A DNA stretch of 59,085 nucleotides from Candidatus Oscillibacter pullicola (GTDB lineage Bacteria > Bacillota > Clostridia > Oscillospirales > Oscillospiraceae), in the NCBI GenBank assembly GCA_019118935.1, contig DWXY01000042.1, positions 1-59,085 on the forward strand, in the 5' to 3' direction. Positions 1,662 through 54,897 of this stretch are shown in pieces (position 1 is the stretch's first letter; every line of letters starts with the position of its first letter). The translations under genes and the position numbers were made by a program. Under the pieces are notes generated by a model that worked only from the letters and a program-made list of their open reading frames with translations, searched no databases and was not told the origin of the DNA.

Positions 1662-4025
1662 TCACTGGCCCCGCAGGCCGTCCAGAAAGCCCCGGAGGAA
1701 TCCGCCGCCCCGCCTGCTCCCGTCTTTCTCCAGACGGTCCGCCGCCTCCCGGGCGCCCGCATACCCCTGCTCCGCGGCGGCCTGATAGAGTTCTCTCGCC
1801 TGCCTCAGATCCCGGGGCACACCTTTGCCGTGCTCATAGCACCAGGCCAGATTATACTGGGCACGGGGCTCGGACTCCTCCACCGCCTGGCGGTACCACT
1901 TCACCGCGTCCGCCCAGCTCTGCGCCACGCCGACGCCGGTCTCGTACAGATACCCCAAATTGCAGGCGGCCACCCGGTCGCCGCCCTCTGCGGCCTGCCG
2001 GTACAGGTCGGCTGCCTTGACCGGGTCCTTCGCCACGCCGTGGCCGAACTCCCAGCAGACGCCCAGGTTGCACTGGGCACGGGGGTAGCCCTGCTCCGCC
2101 GCCGCCTGATACCAGCGGACAGCCTCCTGCCAGTTCTGTTCTACGCCCTCTCCGGTCTCATACAGATATCCCAGGTTGCACTGGGCGGCCGCGTCCTCCC
2201 GCTCCGCCGCCTGTCGGTACAGCCGGGCTGCCTCCGCTGCGTCCCGCTCCACGCCTTCGCCCCGTTCGTAGCACACGCCCAGGTTGCACATGGCCGCGGC
2301 GGAACCGGCATCCACCGCCCGGCGGTACCACTGGACCGCCTCTTCCCAGTTCTGTTCCACGCCGCGGCCGTATTTGCAGCAGACGCCCATGCAGAACAGC
2401 CCCCGGGGGTCCTCCTGGTCCGCCGCCTGACGGTACCAGTGGACAGCCCGCTTCCAGTTCTGCTCCACGCCCTTGCCGTACTCATAGCACCAGGCCAGGT
2501 TGCACTGGGCACGGGGCATTCCCTGCTCTGCGGCAGCGCGGTACCACCGCACCGCCTCCTCCCAGCTTTGCTCCACACCCTCGCCGCTCTCGTACAGGAA
2601 TCCCAGATTGCACTGCCCGGCGGCATTGCCGGCCTCGGCTGCCCGCCGGTACAGGTTCACGGCCCTGTTCAGGTCCCGCTCCACGCCCTCGCCGCGTTCA
2701 TAGCACACGCCCAGGTCGCACATGGCCGCCGCGGAGCCGGCGTCCGCCGCTTTTTGATACCAGGCCACCGCCTCTGTGCTGTTCTGCGCCACGCCGCGGC
2801 CGTAGTCGAAGCAGCGGGCCACGCAGAAAAGTCCTCTGGCATCCCCCTGCTCCGCCGCCTTCCGGTACAGGCAGTAGCTCTCCTCCAGATCCTGAGGGAC
2901 GCCCTTGCCGTACTCATAGCACCAAGCCAGATTGCACTGGGCACGAGGCAGGCCCTGTTCCGCGGCGGCACGGTACCACCGCACCGCCTCCTCCCAGCTC
3001 TGTTCCACGCCCTGGCCGCTCTCGTACAGAAATCCCAGGCAGCACTGGGCGTCCTCGTCCTCCTGCTCGGCCGCCTTCCGGTACCAGTCCGCGGCAGCGG
3101 CCAGATCCAGCGGGACGCCCCGGCCCCGCTCACAGCAGAAGCCCATGCACAGCTGTCCCCGGGGATAGCCCTGCTCCGCCGCGCGGAGATACAGCCGGGC
3201 CGCCTCCGGGTAGTCCTGCTCCACGCCCTTGCCGTACTCATAGCACCAGGCCAGGTTGCACAGGGCCCGGGGATAGTCCTGCTCCGCGGCGGCGCGGTAC
3301 CACCGCACCGCCTCCTCCCAGCTCTGCTCCACCCCCTGGCCGCTCTCATACAGGAACCCCAGGCAGCACTGGCCCGGCGCGTTGCCATTGTCCGCCGCAG
3401 CGCGGTACCATTTCACCGCCTGCTCGATGCTCCGGGGCAGGCCGGTGCCGAACTCCAGGCAGCGCCCCAGTTCCGTCTGCGCCGCGGGATAGCCCAGCCA
3501 TGCGGCGGACTGATACCAGCGGGCGGCCTCCTCGTCGCTCTGCTCCACTCCCAGGCCGCGGGAATAGGCCTCCCCCAGCAGGAACTGGGCCCTGGGAAAG
3601 CCGTTTTCCGCCCCCTTGCGGAAGCACTCCACCGCTTTGGCGTCATCCCGCGCCACACCGATGCCGTGGGCGTAGCAGTACCCCAGGTTCGTCAGGGCGG
3701 GCATATAGTCCCGGGCGGCGGCCTGGGCGTACAGCACCACCGCCTGCCGGGGGTCGGCAGGCACGCCGATCCCAGCCTCCAGACACCAGCCCAGGTTCGT
3801 CACGCCCAGCATATCATCCAGGGCCGCCGCCTGCTGGTAGCAGGCCAGCGCGTCCGTGGGCCGCTCCTCATCCACAGCCCGGTTGCCCAGCTGCACCCAG
3901 TCGGGCCCCGTCAGCTCCTCTTCGTCCACAGAGAGGAAAAAGGTGCCCCCGCACTGGGGGCAGACATCCGGTTCCTCCTCTGCCAGAAACCCGCAGTCCG
4001 GGTTCTCACAGCGATAGTAATTCAT
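1662..4025 (-). CDS. Zinc-ribbon protein with about 19 Sel1-like repeats
   Basis: 787 residues. The N terminus carries a zinc ribbon (Cys pairs in YRCENPDCG and DVCPQCGG). The rest is an uninterrupted solenoid of about 36-residue Sel1-type TPR-like repeats; I count 19 copies of the GxGV turn motif, each preceded by LGxxYExG-like and followed by AVxWYRxAAEQG-like segments. Sel1 repeats act as protein-interaction scaffolds. No signal peptide or membrane segment is seen, so a cytoplasmic adaptor is likely. The repeats show a higher-order pattern: blocks with the segment SWEEAVRWYRAAAEQ recur three times almost identically, pointing to recent internal duplication. A good GAGGAGGTG site precedes the ATG. 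It is the last gene of a probable cls-ttcA-sel1 transcription unit, 18 bp after ttcA. Partner proteins unknown. Confidence 0.9.
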   Translation of the reverse strand: MNYYRCENPDCGFLAEEEPDVCPQCGGTFFLSVDEEELTGPDWVQLGNRAVDEERPTDALACYQQAAALDDMLGVTNLGWCLEAGIGVPADPRQAVVLYAQAAARDYMPALTNLGYCYAHGIGVARDDAKAVECFRKGAENGFPRAQFLLGEAYSRGLGVEQSDEEAARWYQSAAWLGYPAAQTELGRCLEFGTGLPRSIEQAVKWYRAAADNGNAPGQCCLGFLYESGQGVEQSWEEAVRWYRAAAEQDYPRALCNLAWCYEYGKGVEQDYPEAARLYLRAAEQGYPRGQLCMGFCCERGRGVPLDLAAAADWYRKAAEQEDEDAQCCLGFLYESGQGVEQSWEEAVRWYRAAAEQGLPRAQCNLAWCYEYGKGVPQDLEESYCLYRKAAEQGDARGLFCVARCFDYGRGVAQNSTEAVAWYQKAADAGSAAAMCDLGVCYERGEGVERDLNRAVNLYRRAAEAGNAAGQCNLGFLYESGEGVEQSWEEAVRWYRAAAEQGMPRAQCNLAWCYEYGKGVEQNWKRAVHWYRQAADQEDPRGLFCMGVCCKYGRGVEQNWEEAVQWYRRAVDAGSAAAMCNLGVCYERGEGVERDAAEAARLYRQAAEREDAAAQCNLGYLYETGEGVEQNWQEAVRWYQAAAEQGYPRAQCNLGVCWEFGHGVAKDPVKAADLYRQAAEGGDRVAACNLGYLYETGVGVAQSWADAVKWYRQAVEESEPRAQYNLAWCYEHGKGVPRDLRQARELYQAAAEQGYAGAREAADRLEKDGSRRGGGFLRGFLDGLRGQ

Positions 4026-17472: not shown

Positions 17473-17725
17473 GCCCCTGACCGCTCTGCGGTCAGGGGCG
17501 TAAGAAACCTACGCGGTACCACCCTGTTCAGCCAGCCGTCGCCGGATGGCTCTCAGCGGCCCAAGGGGCCTCGGCCGGTAACGGGGCCTGCCGTCCCGCC
17601 CTACTACCCGTTCAGGCGGGAGACTCCGGGAACAGTCATCCGCGAAACTCCCCCACCGGCTCACAGCGGCCGCCGGCTCTCTGGAGGCAGGACGTTTCGC
17701 CTTTCTTCCCATCAATGTCGTTAAC
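17473..17725 (-). promoter_or_regulatory. T-box leader of leuS
   Basis: On the minus strand the leader carries the T-box core GGTGGTACCGCG (at 17512-17529 with flanking GAACAG), preceded by the usual stem-III-type segment and followed by a terminator: a 12-bp stem (17473-17484 with 17488-17499) and a short U run. A GGGAAG start and AGAGAG bulge-like element lie at the 5' end. T-boxes bind the cognate tRNA; uncharged tRNA-Leu would stabilise the antiterminator. A CUC triplet is present in the expected distal part of stem I, but I could not fold stem I confidently enough to prove the specifier. Confidence 0.93.
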
Positions 17726-25304: not shown

Positions 25305-25995
25305 GATCTACATCTTCTTTCCTGAAAAGTTCCACAGGCGTTGGGCCGCCCGGGATCGTTCCACCCGCTTGGATGGAGAAAACAGCCATGCTGATGGCTG
25401 GGCAATACACCCCCCATTTTCTTTTCGGTCTTGCCGAAAAGAAAACGGGCCGTGCACGGTCCAAAAGAAAAGAACGCTTTTTGTCGCGCTCCGGCACCTT
25501 CGTGCCTCCGCGCTGTACGGGGGGCGGCGTGAGATGGTGCCTGCAGGTTCGTGATGGCTCCCCGACGGGCGCGGCGGGATGCGGTACAGGCTTGATGGCG
25601 GATTCCCGCGGCGCGGATGCGGAGGTCATCGGGTTGCAAGAACGCATTTGACCAGCTCCTCTTTCCGCGCGTTCCGCTTCGCTACGCGCTACCCGGACGG
25701 TTGTGGGTGCCTGTACCGGCAGGCCGATGAGGGCATCGGCCCCTATGGATGGGTTGGGCCCCCTTCTTCTCTGTAGGGGCGGATGCCCTCATCCGCCCGT
25801 CGCACCAGCTCCCGCACGGGATAGCCAGCGGCAGCTACGGGGCCCCCGCCGCGGCCCGCGCGGTGGGGAAAGGAGAAGCAAGGGAGCGGGAGCAGTTTTC
25901 GCCGCAGGCGGAAACGAAGCTGAGCGGACTTTGCGACGACGCAATGGGGGCGCATCCCCTGTGGGAACAACCCCTGCGGGAGCAGGGATCTTCCC
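25305..25995 (-). other. Gene-free 690-bp region rich in hairpins
   Basis: I find no credible gene between the rph start and the ftsY stop: open frames have no ribosome binding site and no protein character. It contains a perfect 12-bp hairpin (25417-25428 with 25434-25445), a pair of imperfect 25-nt inverted arms built on GATGAGGGCATC (about 25722-25746 and 25775-25799), and a copy of the structured repeat at 25841-25942. Base composition is unlike coding DNA. Confidence 0.6.
25841..25942 (-). repeat. Structured intergenic repeat, copy C
   Basis: Read on the minus strand it starts GCGTCGTCGCA (25932-25942), then hairpin 1 (25895-25903 with 25907-25915, 9 bp with one GU pair), a pyrimidine-rich tail ending CTCCTTTCCCCAC, hairpin 2 (25849-25853 with 25859-25863), and ends GCGGGGGCCC. 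Copies at 27500-27611 and 54376-54480 share the flanks and differ in the stems. Copy C is downstream of ftsY in transcript orientation. Confidence 0.7.
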
Positions 25996-27424: not shown

Positions 27425-27497
27425 TTGATCTTCAGTTCTTTCGCCATGTCGTTCAGGTTGATGGTCAGGATCTTGCTCACGCCCTGCTCCTGCATGG
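27425..27497 (-). repeat. Duplicate of the smc 3' end (outer copy)
   Basis: 73 bp identical at 71 positions to 27635-27707 inside smc (differences at 27451 and 27487). It still encodes the last residues MQEQGVSKILTINLNDMAKE and onward to a TAA at 27421-27423, but has no start of its own and is separated from smc by the smc stop and the structured repeat. Confidence 0.9.
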
Positions 27498-27499
27498 CG

Positions 27500-27611
27500 G
27501 CGTCGTCGCAGGCTCCGCATCCCTCGTTCCGGCCTCCCGGCCGGAACTCGCTCTCTCCGCTGCTCCTCCTTTTCCCACCGAAACCGCTTCGCTGGGTTTC
27601 GGCGGGAGCCC
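27500..27611 (+). repeat. Structured intergenic repeat, copy B
   Basis: On the plus strand: GCGTCGTCGCA (27500-27510), hairpin 1 (27526-27534 with 27539-27547, perfect 9 bp GTTCCGGCC), pyrimidine tail ending CCCAC, hairpin 2 (27578-27585 with 27595-27602, CCGAAACC/GGTTTCGG), then CGGGAGCCC. It lies exactly between the two copies of the smc 3' end. Confidence 0.75.
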
Positions 27612-27617
27612 TGGGGC

Positions 27618-27714
27618 GGCGTCACCATGCTCACTTGATCTTCAGTTCTTTCGCCATGTCATTCAGGTTGATGGTCAGGATCTTGCTCACGCCCTGTTCC
27701 TGCATGGTGACGCC
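27618..27714. repeat. 13-bp perfect inverted repeat flanking the end of smc
   Basis: GGCGTCACCATGC (27618-27630) just past the smc stop is the exact reverse complement of GCATGGTGACGCC (27702-27714) inside smc. The arms bracket the inner copy of the duplicated 73 bp. This looks like a trace of the event that made the duplication. Confidence 0.8.
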
Positions 27715-30700
27715 GTAGAGGACGTCGGCCTCCTCCATGGTGCCCCGGCGGTGGGTGATGACGATGAACTGGGTCCGGCCTGCCAGCGTCCGCATATAGC
27801 GGGCGTAGCGGGTGACGTTGGCGTCATCCAGGGCCGCCTCGATCTCGTCCATCACGCAGAAGGGCGTGGGATGGACTTTCAGAATGGAGAAATACAGGGC
27901 GATGGCCACAAAGGCCTTCTCGCCGCCGGACAGCAGGGAGATGGTCTTGAGGGTCTTTCCCGGCGGCTGGGCCTTGATCTCAATGCCGCAGCCCAGGATG
28001 TCCTCCTCGTCCTCCAGCTCCAGTCTGGCCGTGCCTCCGCCGAAGAGCTCCTGGAAGGTGGTCTGGAAGCTCTCGGACAGCAGCTTGAACTGCTCGGCGA
28101 AGATCTTGGTCATCTCCTCCGTGATCTCGCCGATGATGTTCTCCAGCTCGCCCTTGGCCTTCTCCACATCGTTGCGCTGGTCCGTCAGGTAGGTGTAGCG
28201 GGTGTTCACCCGCTGGAACTCGTCGATGGCGCCGATGTTGGGGGTCCCCAGGGCGGCGATGTCCCGCTTCAGCTCCCCGATCCGCCGGTTGGCCTTTGGC
28301 ACGCTCTCCAGCTCGATCCGCTGTGCCTGGGCGTCGGAGTGGGAGAGCTCGTAGTGTTCCCACAGCCGGTCCAGGATCTGCTTTTCCTCCATGGCGGAGG
28401 TGGCCCGCTTCTGGTCCAGCTTGGCCACCGCCCGCTCCAGGTTCAGCAGGTTCTCGTTCATCTCCTGGCCCGCCCGGTTCTTGGCGGTCCGCTCCGCCTC
28501 CAGGGCGTTCTTCTCCTCTGTGATGGCGGCCAGCCGCTGCCGGAAGGCCGCGCCCCGGCCCGCCAGCTCCTCCAGCGCCGTCTGCAATCCGGCGATCTCT
28601 TCCTCCGCGGCGGCGATGTTCCGGCGGTAGGTCTCCGCCATCTGCTCCTTCTGCTCCCGGTCACCGGAGAGATCCGCGCACAGCGCCCGCAGGTCCGCGG
28701 CGCTGCGGACCGTGGCCTCCCGCTCGGCGGCCAGGGCAGCCAGATCGCTCTTCCTGCCGCTGATCTCCTCCGCCAGGGCGCCGGATTTCTCCAGCAGCTC
28801 CGACTGGCCGGAGAGAGCCGCCTCCGCCTGGGCCCGCGCTTCCGCGGCGGCGGATTCCTGCCGGTCGATCTCCGCCTGGGCGGCGGCGGACCGGGTGTCG
28901 TTGTCCGTCAGCCGTCCGGCCAGGCTCTCCAGCTCGCCGGTGAGGTTCTCCACGCTCTCCTCCAGAGAGCGCAGCAGGAGGTCATATTGGCCCTTGATGC
29001 CCTCCAGCCGCAGGACCTCGTCCTCCGCCTGGCGGCGCTGGGCCTCCGCGGTCTCCAGCTCGTACTGGGCGGCGGCCAGCTCCCGGGCGGTGTCCTCCTC
29101 CGCCTGCTTTGCCTCCGCCAGCTTCGCCTGCATGGCGGCGGACCGGGCGGTGAGCTGCTCCAGCTCCGCGGACCGGCTCAGCACGCCGGCGGACCGGCTG
29201 GTGCTGCCGCCGGTCATGGAACCGCCCCGGTTGATGACCTGGCCGTCCAGCGTCACGATCCGGAAGGCGTTGCGGTACTTCCGGGCCATGGCGATGCCGC
29301 AGTCCAGGTCCTCCACCACCACAGTGCGGCCCAGCAGGTTGTAGACAATGTTCCGGTACGCGGGGTCGAAGGTCACCAACCGGGACCCCAGGCCCACGAA
29401 ACCGAATTCGTTCTCCACGCCCTTTTCCCGGAGCTCGTCGCCCCGGATGGCGGTGAGGGGCAGGAATGTGGCCCGGCCGGCGTCCCGCTGTTTCAGGTAG
29501 CTGATGGCGGCCTTGGCGTCCTCTTCCCGGTCCACCACGATGTTCTGCAATCCCGCCCCCAGGGCAATCTCGATGGCCAGGGAGTACTTGCCGTCGGTCT
29601 TCACCAGATTGGCCACCGGGCCATGGATGCCCCGCAGGCCGCTCTGGGCGCGACAGACGAACTTGACCGCCTTGGAGAAGCCCTCGTACTCCTTTTCCAT
29701 CTCCGCCAGCAGGCGGCGGCGGTTCTCCAGCGCCCCCGCGTCCATGGTCAGCTGGACCCGCCGCTCCGCGGCGGCGGCGGCCTTCTTCTTCCGCTCCTCC
29801 ATCCGCAGGCTGTGGCCCGCGATGATGTTGGCGGCGGCCTCCGCCTCGTCCCTGGCATCCTCCAGGGCGCGGCGGTTCTCCCGCGCCTCCTGCCGGGCGG
29901 ACTGGAGCTGCTCCTCCGCAGCGCCCCTGTCCCGCTCTGCGGCCTCCCGCCGCTCCTGGATCTGGTCCTTCTCCGCGGCGGCGGCGGCCAGTTCCGCCCG
30001 CGCGTCCGCGGCAGCGGCCACGGCGATGGCCTCCTGTGCCCGCAGGCGCGCCGCCTCGTTCTGGGCGCCGCCGGCCTGTTCCGCCATGGCCTGGGCGGTC
30101 TCCAGCAGGGCGGCCAGCGCACCGTTCAGCTCCCCGATCCGCCGGTCGATCTCCGCCACCCGGGCTTCCTGCTCCTCCGCCTGCTTCGCAAGGCCGCCGG
30201 AGCGGCTCTCCGCCTCTGCCAGCTCCGCCTCCGCCCGCTGGATGTTCTCCCGGTTGTGGGCGATGGTGCTCTCCAGCACGGCGGCAGCGGACTCCTTCTC
30301 CTTGATCCGGTCCTCCAGAGCGGCGGACTCTGTCCGGACCCGCTCAGCCTCCATGTCCTTCTCCCGCATCCGCTCACTGTACCGCTCCCCCTCGGCATAG
30401 AGGGCATCCAGAGCGGCGCGGGCCTCGTCCCGCTGGGCTTCTGCGGCGTGGAAGTCCGCCTCCAGCTTCCGGGCGCCCGCCTTCAGGGCGTCCAGATTCT
30501 CCAGCCAGACGGAGATCTCCAGAAGGCGCAGCTCATCCCGGAGCACCAGATACTTCCTGGCCTTCTCCGCCTGCTCCCGCAGGGGCTCCACCTGGAGCTC
30601 CAGCTCGGCGATCTTGTCGTTGATGCGGACCAGATTCTCCTCCGTCCGCTCCAGCTTCCGCTCCGCCTCCTCCTTCCGGTGGCGGAACTTGGAGATGCCG

Positions 30701-31197
30701 GCGGCCTCCTCGAAGATCTCCCGCCGCTCCCCGCTCTTGGCGGAGAGGATCTCATCGATCTTGCCCTGGCCGATGATGGAGTAGCCCTCCCGGCCCATGC
30801 CGGTGTCCAGGAACAGCTCCGTCAAGTCCTTCAGCCGGACGGACTGGCGGTTGATGTAGTATTCGCTTTCGCCGCTGCGGTAATAGCGGCGGGTGACGGA
30901 CACCTCGCTCTCCTCCATGGTGGGGAAGATGTGCTCCGTGTTGTCCAGCACCAGGGTCACCTGGGCAAACCCCACCTGGCTGCGCTTCTCCGTGCCGCCG
31001 AAAATCACGTCCTCCATCTTGGCGCCCCGGAGGCCCTTGACGCTCTGCTCCCCCATCACCCACCGGATGGCGTCGGAGATATTGGACTTGCCGGAGCCGT
31101 TGGGGCCCACGATGGCGGTGATATCCTCGCCGAAATTCAGGACCGTCTTGTCCGGAAAGGACTTGAACCCCTGAATCTCCAATGCCTTTAAATACAC
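27631..31197 (-). CDS. smc: Chromosome segregation protein SMC
   Basis: 1188 residues, family length. Walker A GPNGSGKSNI (31-40) in the N-terminal head, two long coiled coils rich in Ala/Glu/Arg, a hinge at about 510-660 containing GLRGIHGPVANLVKTD and a Gly-rich GGSMTGG segment, and the C-terminal head with signature LLSGGEKAFVAIAL and Walker B FCVMDEIEAALDD. It forms the condensin core with ScpA/ScpB. The final codons up to TGA at 27631 come from the inner copy of a 73-bp duplication, so the protein end is restored. Followed by two zinc-ribbon genes and ftsY. Confidence 0.98.
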   Translation of the reverse strand: MYLKALEIQGFKSFPDKTVLNFGEDITAIVGPNGSGKSNISDAIRWVMGEQSVKGLRGAKMEDVIFGGTEKRSQVGFAQVTLVLDNTEHIFPTMEESEVSVTRRYYRSGESEYYINRQSVRLKDLTELFLDTGMGREGYSIIGQGKIDEILSAKSGERREIFEEAAGISKFRHRKEEAERKLERTEENLVRINDKIAELELQVEPLREQAEKARKYLVLRDELRLLEISVWLENLDALKAGARKLEADFHAAEAQRDEARAALDALYAEGERYSERMREKDMEAERVRTESAALEDRIKEKESAAAVLESTIAHNRENIQRAEAELAEAESRSGGLAKQAEEQEARVAEIDRRIGELNGALAALLETAQAMAEQAGGAQNEAARLRAQEAIAVAAAADARAELAAAAAEKDQIQERREAAERDRGAAEEQLQSARQEARENRRALEDARDEAEAAANIIAGHSLRMEERKKKAAAAAERRVQLTMDAGALENRRRLLAEMEKEYEGFSKAVKFVCRAQSGLRGIHGPVANLVKTDGKYSLAIEIALGAGLQNIVVDREEDAKAAISYLKQRDAGRATFLPLTAIRGDELREKGVENEFGFVGLGSRLVTFDPAYRNIVYNLLGRTVVVEDLDCGIAMARKYRNAFRIVTLDGQVINRGGSMTGGSTSRSAGVLSRSAELEQLTARSAAMQAKLAEAKQAEEDTARELAAAQYELETAEAQRRQAEDEVLRLEGIKGQYDLLLRSLEESVENLTGELESLAGRLTDNDTRSAAAQAEIDRQESAAAEARAQAEAALSGQSELLEKSGALAEEISGRKSDLAALAAEREATVRSAADLRALCADLSGDREQKEQMAETYRRNIAAAEEEIAGLQTALEELAGRGAAFRQRLAAITEEKNALEAERTAKNRAGQEMNENLLNLERAVAKLDQKRATSAMEEKQILDRLWEHYELSHSDAQAQRIELESVPKANRRIGELKRDIAALGTPNIGAIDEFQRVNTRYTYLTDQRNDVEKAKGELENIIGEITEEMTKIFAEQFKLLSESFQTTFQELFGGGTARLELEDEEDILGCGIEIKAQPPGKTLKTISLLSGGEKAFVAIALYFSILKVHPTPFCVMDEIEAALDDANVTRYARYMRTLAGRTQFIVITHRRGTMEEADVLYGVTMQEQGVSKILTINLNDMAKELKIK

Positions 31198-54337: not shown

Positions 54338-54897
54338 AGAGGGGACTGCGTCCCCCTGTTGGATTCCCCCTCACCGCGTCGAAACGAACTGTGCTTTATT
54401 CGGTCCCGCCTTTGGCGAAACCGAACGCCGCTCCGTTTGTTTCTCCTTCCCCCACAAAAGCTGCGCTTTTGCGGGGCCCCCGATGGGGGCACTGGTGTGT
54501 GCGCCCCAAGGGCGCACGGGTCGGGGAATTTTCGGCAGGTACACGCCCTGCCGAAAATGATTAGAATTTATTCTTTCGCCGGAGGCGAAAGAACTGGGGA
54601 AACCGGATGGTTTCCCCTAGCCCTCTTTCTTGTGTGGGGCGGGAGTGGAGTGGAGCACGACAGGTCGTCTCTCCACTCTTCACTCTCAACTCTCCACTCT
54701 GGCGGAGCCAGATGCTCCGCCTCCTCCCTTCCTGCGGTGGAGTCCATGAAGTCCGGCAGACTGCGGCGAACGCATCTCCTTTCTCCTAGCTTCTAACTCC
54801 ACCCTCATGGAGGCGCCTGTCCCCCAATGGGCGTTTGGGTTTTCCGACATTGGCACCCCTGGGGTGTGCCGGAAATGTATGAAAAGGGGTATTACAT
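54338..54897 (+). other. Gene-free 560-bp serC-serA spacer with several hairpins
   Basis: No credible gene. Besides copy A of the structured repeat, it has perfect hairpins at 54499-54517 (GTGCGCCC/GGGCGCAC), 54528-54558 (12 bp, ATTTTCGGCAGG) and 54571-54593 (TTCTTTCGCC/GGCGAAAGAA). A CT-rich stretch with repeated CTCCACTCT-like words follows at about 54665-54705. This looks like an accumulation of repetitive elements. The serA promoter was not found with confidence. Confidence 0.6.
54376..54480 (+). repeat. Structured intergenic repeat, copy A
   Basis: Starts GCGTCG (54376-54381); hairpin 1 (54399-54410 with 54414-54425, internal CC/AA mismatch); tail ending CTCCTTCCCCCAC; hairpin 2 CAAAAGC/GCTTTTG (54455-54461 with 54465-54471); ends CGGGGCCCC. 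The flanks match copies B and C, while both stems are different sequences. It begins 38 bp after the serC stop. Confidence 0.7.

Follow-up and report, generated by a model that had tools for sequence, protein, structure and literature searches.

The 59,085-nt stretch of Candidatus Oscillibacter pullicola DNA analysed here (hereafter the window) carries three copies of a folded repeat, element E, very probably a structured mobile element that can duplicate a long piece of its target on insertion. At one end (G/T/A-CGTCG) the joint between E and the target is precise and mostly follows CC. At the other end hairpin 2 is followed by a few variable nucleotides, often by a tag of 8–15 nt that is the reverse complement of the insertion junction, and then by the second copy of the target.

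Fold and distribution of element E

Element E measures about 105–115 nt. An outer stem, P1, encloses hairpin 1 and is followed by the linker CTCCTYTCCCCAC and by hairpin 2, whose base is a C run set against GGGG. In the order GCGTCG...CCCCAC–hairpin 2–GGGGCCCC, E reads on the minus strand in copy 1 and on the plus strand in copies 2 and 3; the reverse-complement strand is referred to as E-. A preliminary description of the window had reported three such stretches, each just past a stop codon (of ftsY, smc, and serC) and each with two hairpins, and this observation is both real and understated. The stretches lie where they were placed, align with one another, and are exactly the three that cmsearch recovers in the window with the family model, at E-value ≤0.05 and at ≤0.001. 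NCBIfam identifies the adjoining genes as those for FtsY, SMC, and SerC. The outer stem around hairpin 1 had been left out.

Copy 1 (25839–25942, minus strand; model match 25863–25942, 100.1 bits) lies 54 nt downstream of the ftsY stop codon, and its left side, in element orientation, abuts a TGCGCCCCCATT module. Copy 2 (27500–27612, plus strand; model match 27500–27578, 68.6 bits) is flanked by two copies of the smc 3' end. Copy 3 (54376–54481, plus strand; model match 54376–54455, 68.6 bits) begins 38 nt downstream of the serC stop codon and is preceded by CC. Target duplications were looked for around copies 1 and 3 and were found at neither.

Several other features of the window were recorded. 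A TGCRCCCCCCATT module (25943–25957) stands directly before E; 25 of the 191 flanked copies have it in this position, and it is found without E too (e.g., at loci L065 and L075). The palindrome around CCGATGAGGGCATCGGCCCCTA (25717–25802) recurs inside larger elements of genome G018, with similar text in L146 and L148. Copy 3 is followed by a string of four more hairpins (54482–54612), and L139 has a similar tail after E. Farther away are a coding tandem repeat with a 108-base period (1711–3522) and a T-box leader on the minus strand (17491–17724; Rfam RF00230, 97.2 bits).

The earlier proposal that the fold is kept by compensatory changes agrees with the alignment of 111 model-aligned copies (105 distinct rows), in which each of the 13 modelled pairs has one or more double changes and 95.0% of stem cells form a standard pair, vs. 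79.9% in shuffles. Double-change cells number 176, compared with 32.9 ± 4.7 in shuffles (0 of 500 reach 176) and at most 49 in slid controls; these counts take related copies separately, and they lean towards the fold because the alignment was fitted to a model of similar structure, a bias that the two kinds of control ease but do not remove. The folding of single copies is only partly special. On the strand first described and on its opposite, respectively, the z-scores are +0.85 and -1.76 for copy 1, -4.91 and -2.33 for copy 2, and -4.03 and -5.85 for copy 3, thus favouring E- for copies 1 and 3 and E for copy 2. G.U and A.C cells are about even across the aligned copies, and the C.A mismatches in hairpin 1 of copies 1 and 3, as read in the sequence, are G.U on E-. 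The fold may serve mobility, as RNA or as single-stranded DNA, and template switching that corrects imperfect palindromes could account for some of the covariation. The original interpretation, a selected RNA or DNA fold, is supported in part: the compensatory changes speak for it, but the target duplication, the inverted junction copy, and the duplicated smc end had been overlooked.

Three copies also turned out to be a large undercount. A degenerate sequence pattern was dropped as a means of finding copies in the genome itself, as it gave 155 matches (87 forward, 68 reverse) vs. 61 in a backward control, and most of the matches listed look like coding sequence; blastn and a covariance model were used in its place. 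With copy 1 as the query, blastn found further copies, four of them at contig ends, where near-identical repeats that collapse in assembly would be expected to lie. The covariance model (R1), built from 11 copies, has 14 matches in the genome at E-value ≤0.001. The wider search that the preliminary description had called for also found copies in other Oscillospiraceae: E is present in 33 of 41 genomes sampled from the genus (E-value ≤0.01), the richest with 42 and 40 copies, and, under stricter filters by which weak matches are lost, in 90 of 150 genomes from the family and 6 of 299 from a phylum-wide draw (both at E-value ≤1e-4). A pattern scan of named genomes returned 114 stretches, in records labelled Oscillibacter, Pseudoflavonifractor, Intestinimonas, Flavonifractor, Anaerotruncus, Acutalibacter, and Lawsonibacter, with some labelled Lachnospiraceae, Butyricicoccus, or Anaerostipes.

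No family had been recognised from the sequence, and an Rfam search at gathering scores likewise gave no match to E; at E-value ≤1 the only hits were weak ones to miRNA models, over the neighbouring palindrome (25690–25822). We recognised no description of the family in the literature covered, a scope that excluded preprints and most subscription papers. An origin from phages or plasmids was rejected: 2 of 50,697 phage records matched, each in part, and no plasmid did; the exact pattern of E occurs in two viral contigs.

Target duplications and inverted junction copies

Around copy 2 the 3' end of smc is present twice, 210 bases apart. The gene (27631–31197, minus strand) has been interrupted and restored: one end, D1 (27635–27707), belongs to the intact gene, and the other, D2 (27425–27497), lies on the native downstream side, is identical to D1 at 71 of 73 positions, and is followed in the gene sense by the start of the next gene. 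The tag (27617–27630, plus strand) is a 14-nt reverse complement of the target junction 27702–27715 (plus strand), which spans the point where E joins D2 and is intact in the D1 copy. None of 200 shuffled tails matches at equal length. E occupies smc in four genomes (this one, G018, G004, and G024), and the majority of relatives are without it: the 16 other smc loci from the genus (L065–L079 and L081) have the end of the gene once only and lack E over the 330 nt shown, while locus L080 starts inside the gene and is uninformative. When 27500–27578 is compared with L062 and L063, the smc copy shares hairpin 2 with those of G018 and G004 but differs in the hairpin 1 block, a pattern that looks as if the block had been exchanged.

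The same signature was sought among 225 listed copies, 211 of them distinct and 191 with enough flanking sequence; these are mostly high-scoring matches, and they are not independent since they come partly from related genomes. Direct repeats scoring at least 40 join the two flanks in 41 of the 191; for 36 of them, the end of the left copy lies no more than 3 nt from the first base of E. As a control, 12 of 948 cross-paired flanks score as high, four of which end near E, and some of the high-scoring cross-pairs probably share a target gene. The 36 duplications measure 31–139 nt; the signature is absent from the other 155 flanked copies. The longest repeats (L128, L234, L248, and one copy in L300) begin inside hairpin 2 and therefore include part of an older E.

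To identify tags, the tail of each copy, from hairpin 2 to the second duplicate, was compared with the junction. In 21 of the 36 duplicated copies a stretch of 8–15 nt beside E is its exact reverse complement, against 68 of 1260 cross-pairs, which often have a target gene in common. In the stretch tested, the remaining 15 have no exact tag of at least 8 nt. Some of these are tandem arrays (L154 and L300; L138 looks like the remnant of one), the tag of L166 is mutated, and L155 lies inside another E; the rest fit none of these cases. The arrays at L154 and L300 have the form D-E-D-E, and the insertion site therefore stays usable. Between D1, which is continuous with the gene, and the tag there is a further short stretch. 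At nadE, where the G004 allele is empty, the terminator behind D2 in G018 closely resembles the one behind the gene in G004. The tails of non-duplicated copies were compared with their own left flanks and showed no excess of inverted matches. We also dropped the idea that duplications keep the reading frame, as the periods of the 36 fall into the three classes as 12, 9, and 15.

The preferred target is CC|A, with C at -1 in 23 of 25 distinct targets, C at -2 in 21, and A at +1 in 18. CC precedes E in 30 of the 36 duplicated copies and in 48 of 138 others, against a background of 10%, so that many of the non-duplicated copies are probably insertions too. Targets are mostly the ends of conserved genes, and the target gene remains whole. 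Those hit at the 3' end, identified by NCBIfam or Pfam at one locus per gene and assigned elsewhere by similar ends, encode NAD synthase, phosphoglycerate kinase, SMC, alanyl-tRNA synthetase, enolase, UvrA, flagellin, SpoVAC, TelA, pyruvate:ferredoxin oxidoreductase, and ribonuclease HI; TypA and LepA are hit at the gene start. Two target genes that we take to encode phage portal proteins, and a small zinc-ribbon-like protein, had no family match in NCBIfam or Pfam. With junction frames anchored on stop codons (choosing the longest frame was misleading in this GC-rich DNA), the end of the repeat in several well-preserved cases lies about 6 nt or less from the stop codon, and in TypA it falls on the start codon. 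Exceptions are L224, 47 nt past the stop, and L104, L132, L293, and L307, 23–49 nt short of it.

Related arrangements were seen at other loci. On contig C71 of the same genome (around 4572; L045, approximately 1380–1650) two copies of a gene start (about 55 nt) flank a different series of hairpins, with an 11-nt inverted copy of the junction; this locus suggests that the insertion signature may apply to other structured elements too. In G018 two inverted copies of E, approximately 700–900 bases apart, form a larger repeated element (L146 716–1602, L148 805–1635, L147, and L149) with further palindromic modules between them and TGCRCCCCCCATTG outside. A 12-kb locus of G048 (L170) has seven clustered matches to E in an apparent integrative element, several of them within open reading frames whose translation would take in E-.

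Proposed insertion mechanism and rival explanations

With a little under even confidence, we read E as a small non-autonomous element that would spread by target-primed copying with snap-back. The end products of insertion can be read directly from the sequences, and from them we infer the nicks, the template, and the enzyme. The element would be moved in trans by a putative enzyme, in Oscillospiraceae and some neighbouring gut Clostridia as hosts. Its template would be E-, as RNA or single-stranded DNA ending in ..CGACGM. A nick at CC|A would free a 3' end in ..CC to prime synthesis of E; at the far end the new strand would copy 8–15 nt of the neighbouring target strand, by snap-back or template switch; and a second nick, on the other strand and tens of bases away, would prime the second strand and so duplicate the stretch between the nicks. 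Insertions in genes would survive where the duplication restores the gene end or start. The precise CC junction, the ragged far end, the long variable duplication, and the inverted copy of the junction all fit target-primed copying of E-, and the near-identical copies at contig ends and the subtypes common to unlinked sites with different tails (L136 and L150) fit ongoing movement.

Several findings count against this explanation: the 155 copies without the signature, the 15 duplicated copies without an exact tag, the non-duplicated copies without inverted matches in excess, and tags with one mismatch to the local gene at nadE in G015, G047, and G052. Duplications often end near a stop codon, a tendency that the copying model does not predict. 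No mobilising enzyme was found either, in that four candidate families do not track E across the 41 genus genomes, whose assemblies are incomplete. Reverse transcriptase (PF00078; 16 of 41 genomes) is absent from the E-rich genomes G001, G014, and G018 and from G000; G014 is listed as 100% complete, though a divergent or lost reverse transcriptase could escape detection. The Y1 transposase (PF01797; 15 of 41) is absent from E-rich G001 and G014, the TnpB-type nuclease (PF07282; 15 of 41) from G000, G014, and G018, and the IS1634 transposase (NF033559) matches in 7 of 41 genomes at E-value ≤0.001. Incomplete assemblies, divergent enzymes, or loss of the mover may hide the mobiliser. The more specific reading of E as a bacterial counterpart of SINEs, in which a structured RNA of about 110 nt would be target-primed into chromosomal nicks and snap-back of the new strand onto the target, ahead of second-strand synthesis, would leave the duplicated end and the tag, seems somewhat unlikely.

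The nadE loci bear on whether E has inserted repeatedly. A nadE match is present in 35 of the 41 genus genomes; E occupies 10 of 30 nadE loci examined, and also those of G014 (L178) and L315. An unlikely alternative to copying is that a few ancient insertions have evolved in concert, with D1 and D2 kept alike by gene conversion, tags and stems by template-switch correction, and hairpins exchanged by ectopic conversion. In all 10 occupied loci the tag starts 13–17 nt past the stop codon, a constancy that speaks for common descent of at least some copies; G000, G018, and G052 share an E subtype at nadE, and the smc copy of the window shares one hairpin and not the other with G018 and G004. Against this, occupancy is patchy, the nadE subtypes fall into several unrelated groups, the copy at L136 is closest to one in G048 that lies outside nadE and carries a different tail, and the tags in G002 and G014 follow the local allele. 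Concerted evolution would moreover account for the maintenance of the structure and not for its first origin. At nadE, both repeated insertion and an ancient insertion with gene conversion are possible.

An equally improbable reading makes E a MITE whose mover is a DDE transposase of the rare type that generates long direct repeats of variable length, as reported for IS1549 and IS1634, and takes the tag as a side effect of repair at the ends. E is MITE-like in its small size and many copies, and the available text of a 2008 review records variable duplications of 8–514 bp in the IS1634 family (PMC2266710). That text describes no junction tag for the family, however, the IS1634 model scores above cut-off in only one of the 41 genomes, and the alignments of E reveal no clear pair of terminal inverted repeats, its two ends being KCGTCG.. 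and hairpin 2 with ..GGGGCCCC, some tails loosely resembling the start. A cis-acting RNA, terminator-like or regulatory, that spread by duplication without being mobile would agree with covarying stems and with the position of all three window copies downstream of stop codons, but it is very unlikely, since copies stand in either orientation to genes, some lie inside reading frames (L170 and L329), the boundaries are precise and accompanied by target duplication, and Rfam gives no match. Guide-RNA homing, in which the tag would be a 5' guide on E- that steers a nuclease to the matching gene of other genomes, has in its favour 10–15 nt of complementarity to a conserved target and the targeting of the same genes in several species. 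We largely reject it as highly improbable: the target is intact at D1|J after insertion, and a guided nuclease would therefore cleave the very locus that carries it; the tail does not travel with E (L136 and L150); and the distribution of PF07282 does not follow that of E.

Comparison with known mobile elements

Ordinary bacterial transposons are not known to duplicate a gene end and to place a short reversed copy of the junction beside it, and we found no bacterial insertion class with both features in the body of literature defined above. Natural insertions of E number in the dozens and bring the inverted tag as an added diagnostic, so that comparing sequences and strains can distinguish target-primed copying from double-strand transposition and from fold-back repair. 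As E is common in Oscillospiraceae and marks the ends of core genes, it also bears on annotation and on contig breaks in assemblies of gut bacteria.

Like ERIC/RU, BOX, REPIN, and MITE-like repeats, E is small, multi-copy, imperfectly palindromic, and mostly intergenic. Those repeats typically have a short target duplication or none; E differs in its long duplications and in having two separate hairpin domains. E resembles MITEs in being non-coding and multi-copy in many genomes, but its duplications of 31–139 nt (36 copies) are unlike the short fixed ones of 2–10 bp that characterise MITEs. Elements of the IS200/IS605 group and TnpB omega-RNAs resemble E in their hairpin ends and in possibly acting as single strands, but they insert without target duplication, in contrast to the 36 of 191 E copies that have a long one; the distribution of the Y1 transposase differs as well. 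Target-primed retroelements (LINE/SINE, R2) produce variable target duplications with one precise and one ragged junction; E is like them in both respects, although reverse transcriptase does not track it.

Rickettsia palindromic elements are similar to E in size (about 100–150 bp), in dispersal, and in the presence of some copies inside reading frames, but they occur in unrelated hosts and have no long target duplication or junction tag in the available part of their description (PMC10969869). IS1549 and IS1634 encode a transposase, while E is non-coding, about 110 nt long, and not tracked by the IS1634 transposase; the inverted junction tag of E is likewise absent from the available text on these elements (PMC2266710). 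In that text long variable duplications are attributed to two insertion sequences (references of 1998 and 1999) and are given no mechanistic model. With direct repeats that are similarly long and variable in length, these two insertion sequences are the closest precedent for the duplications made with E.
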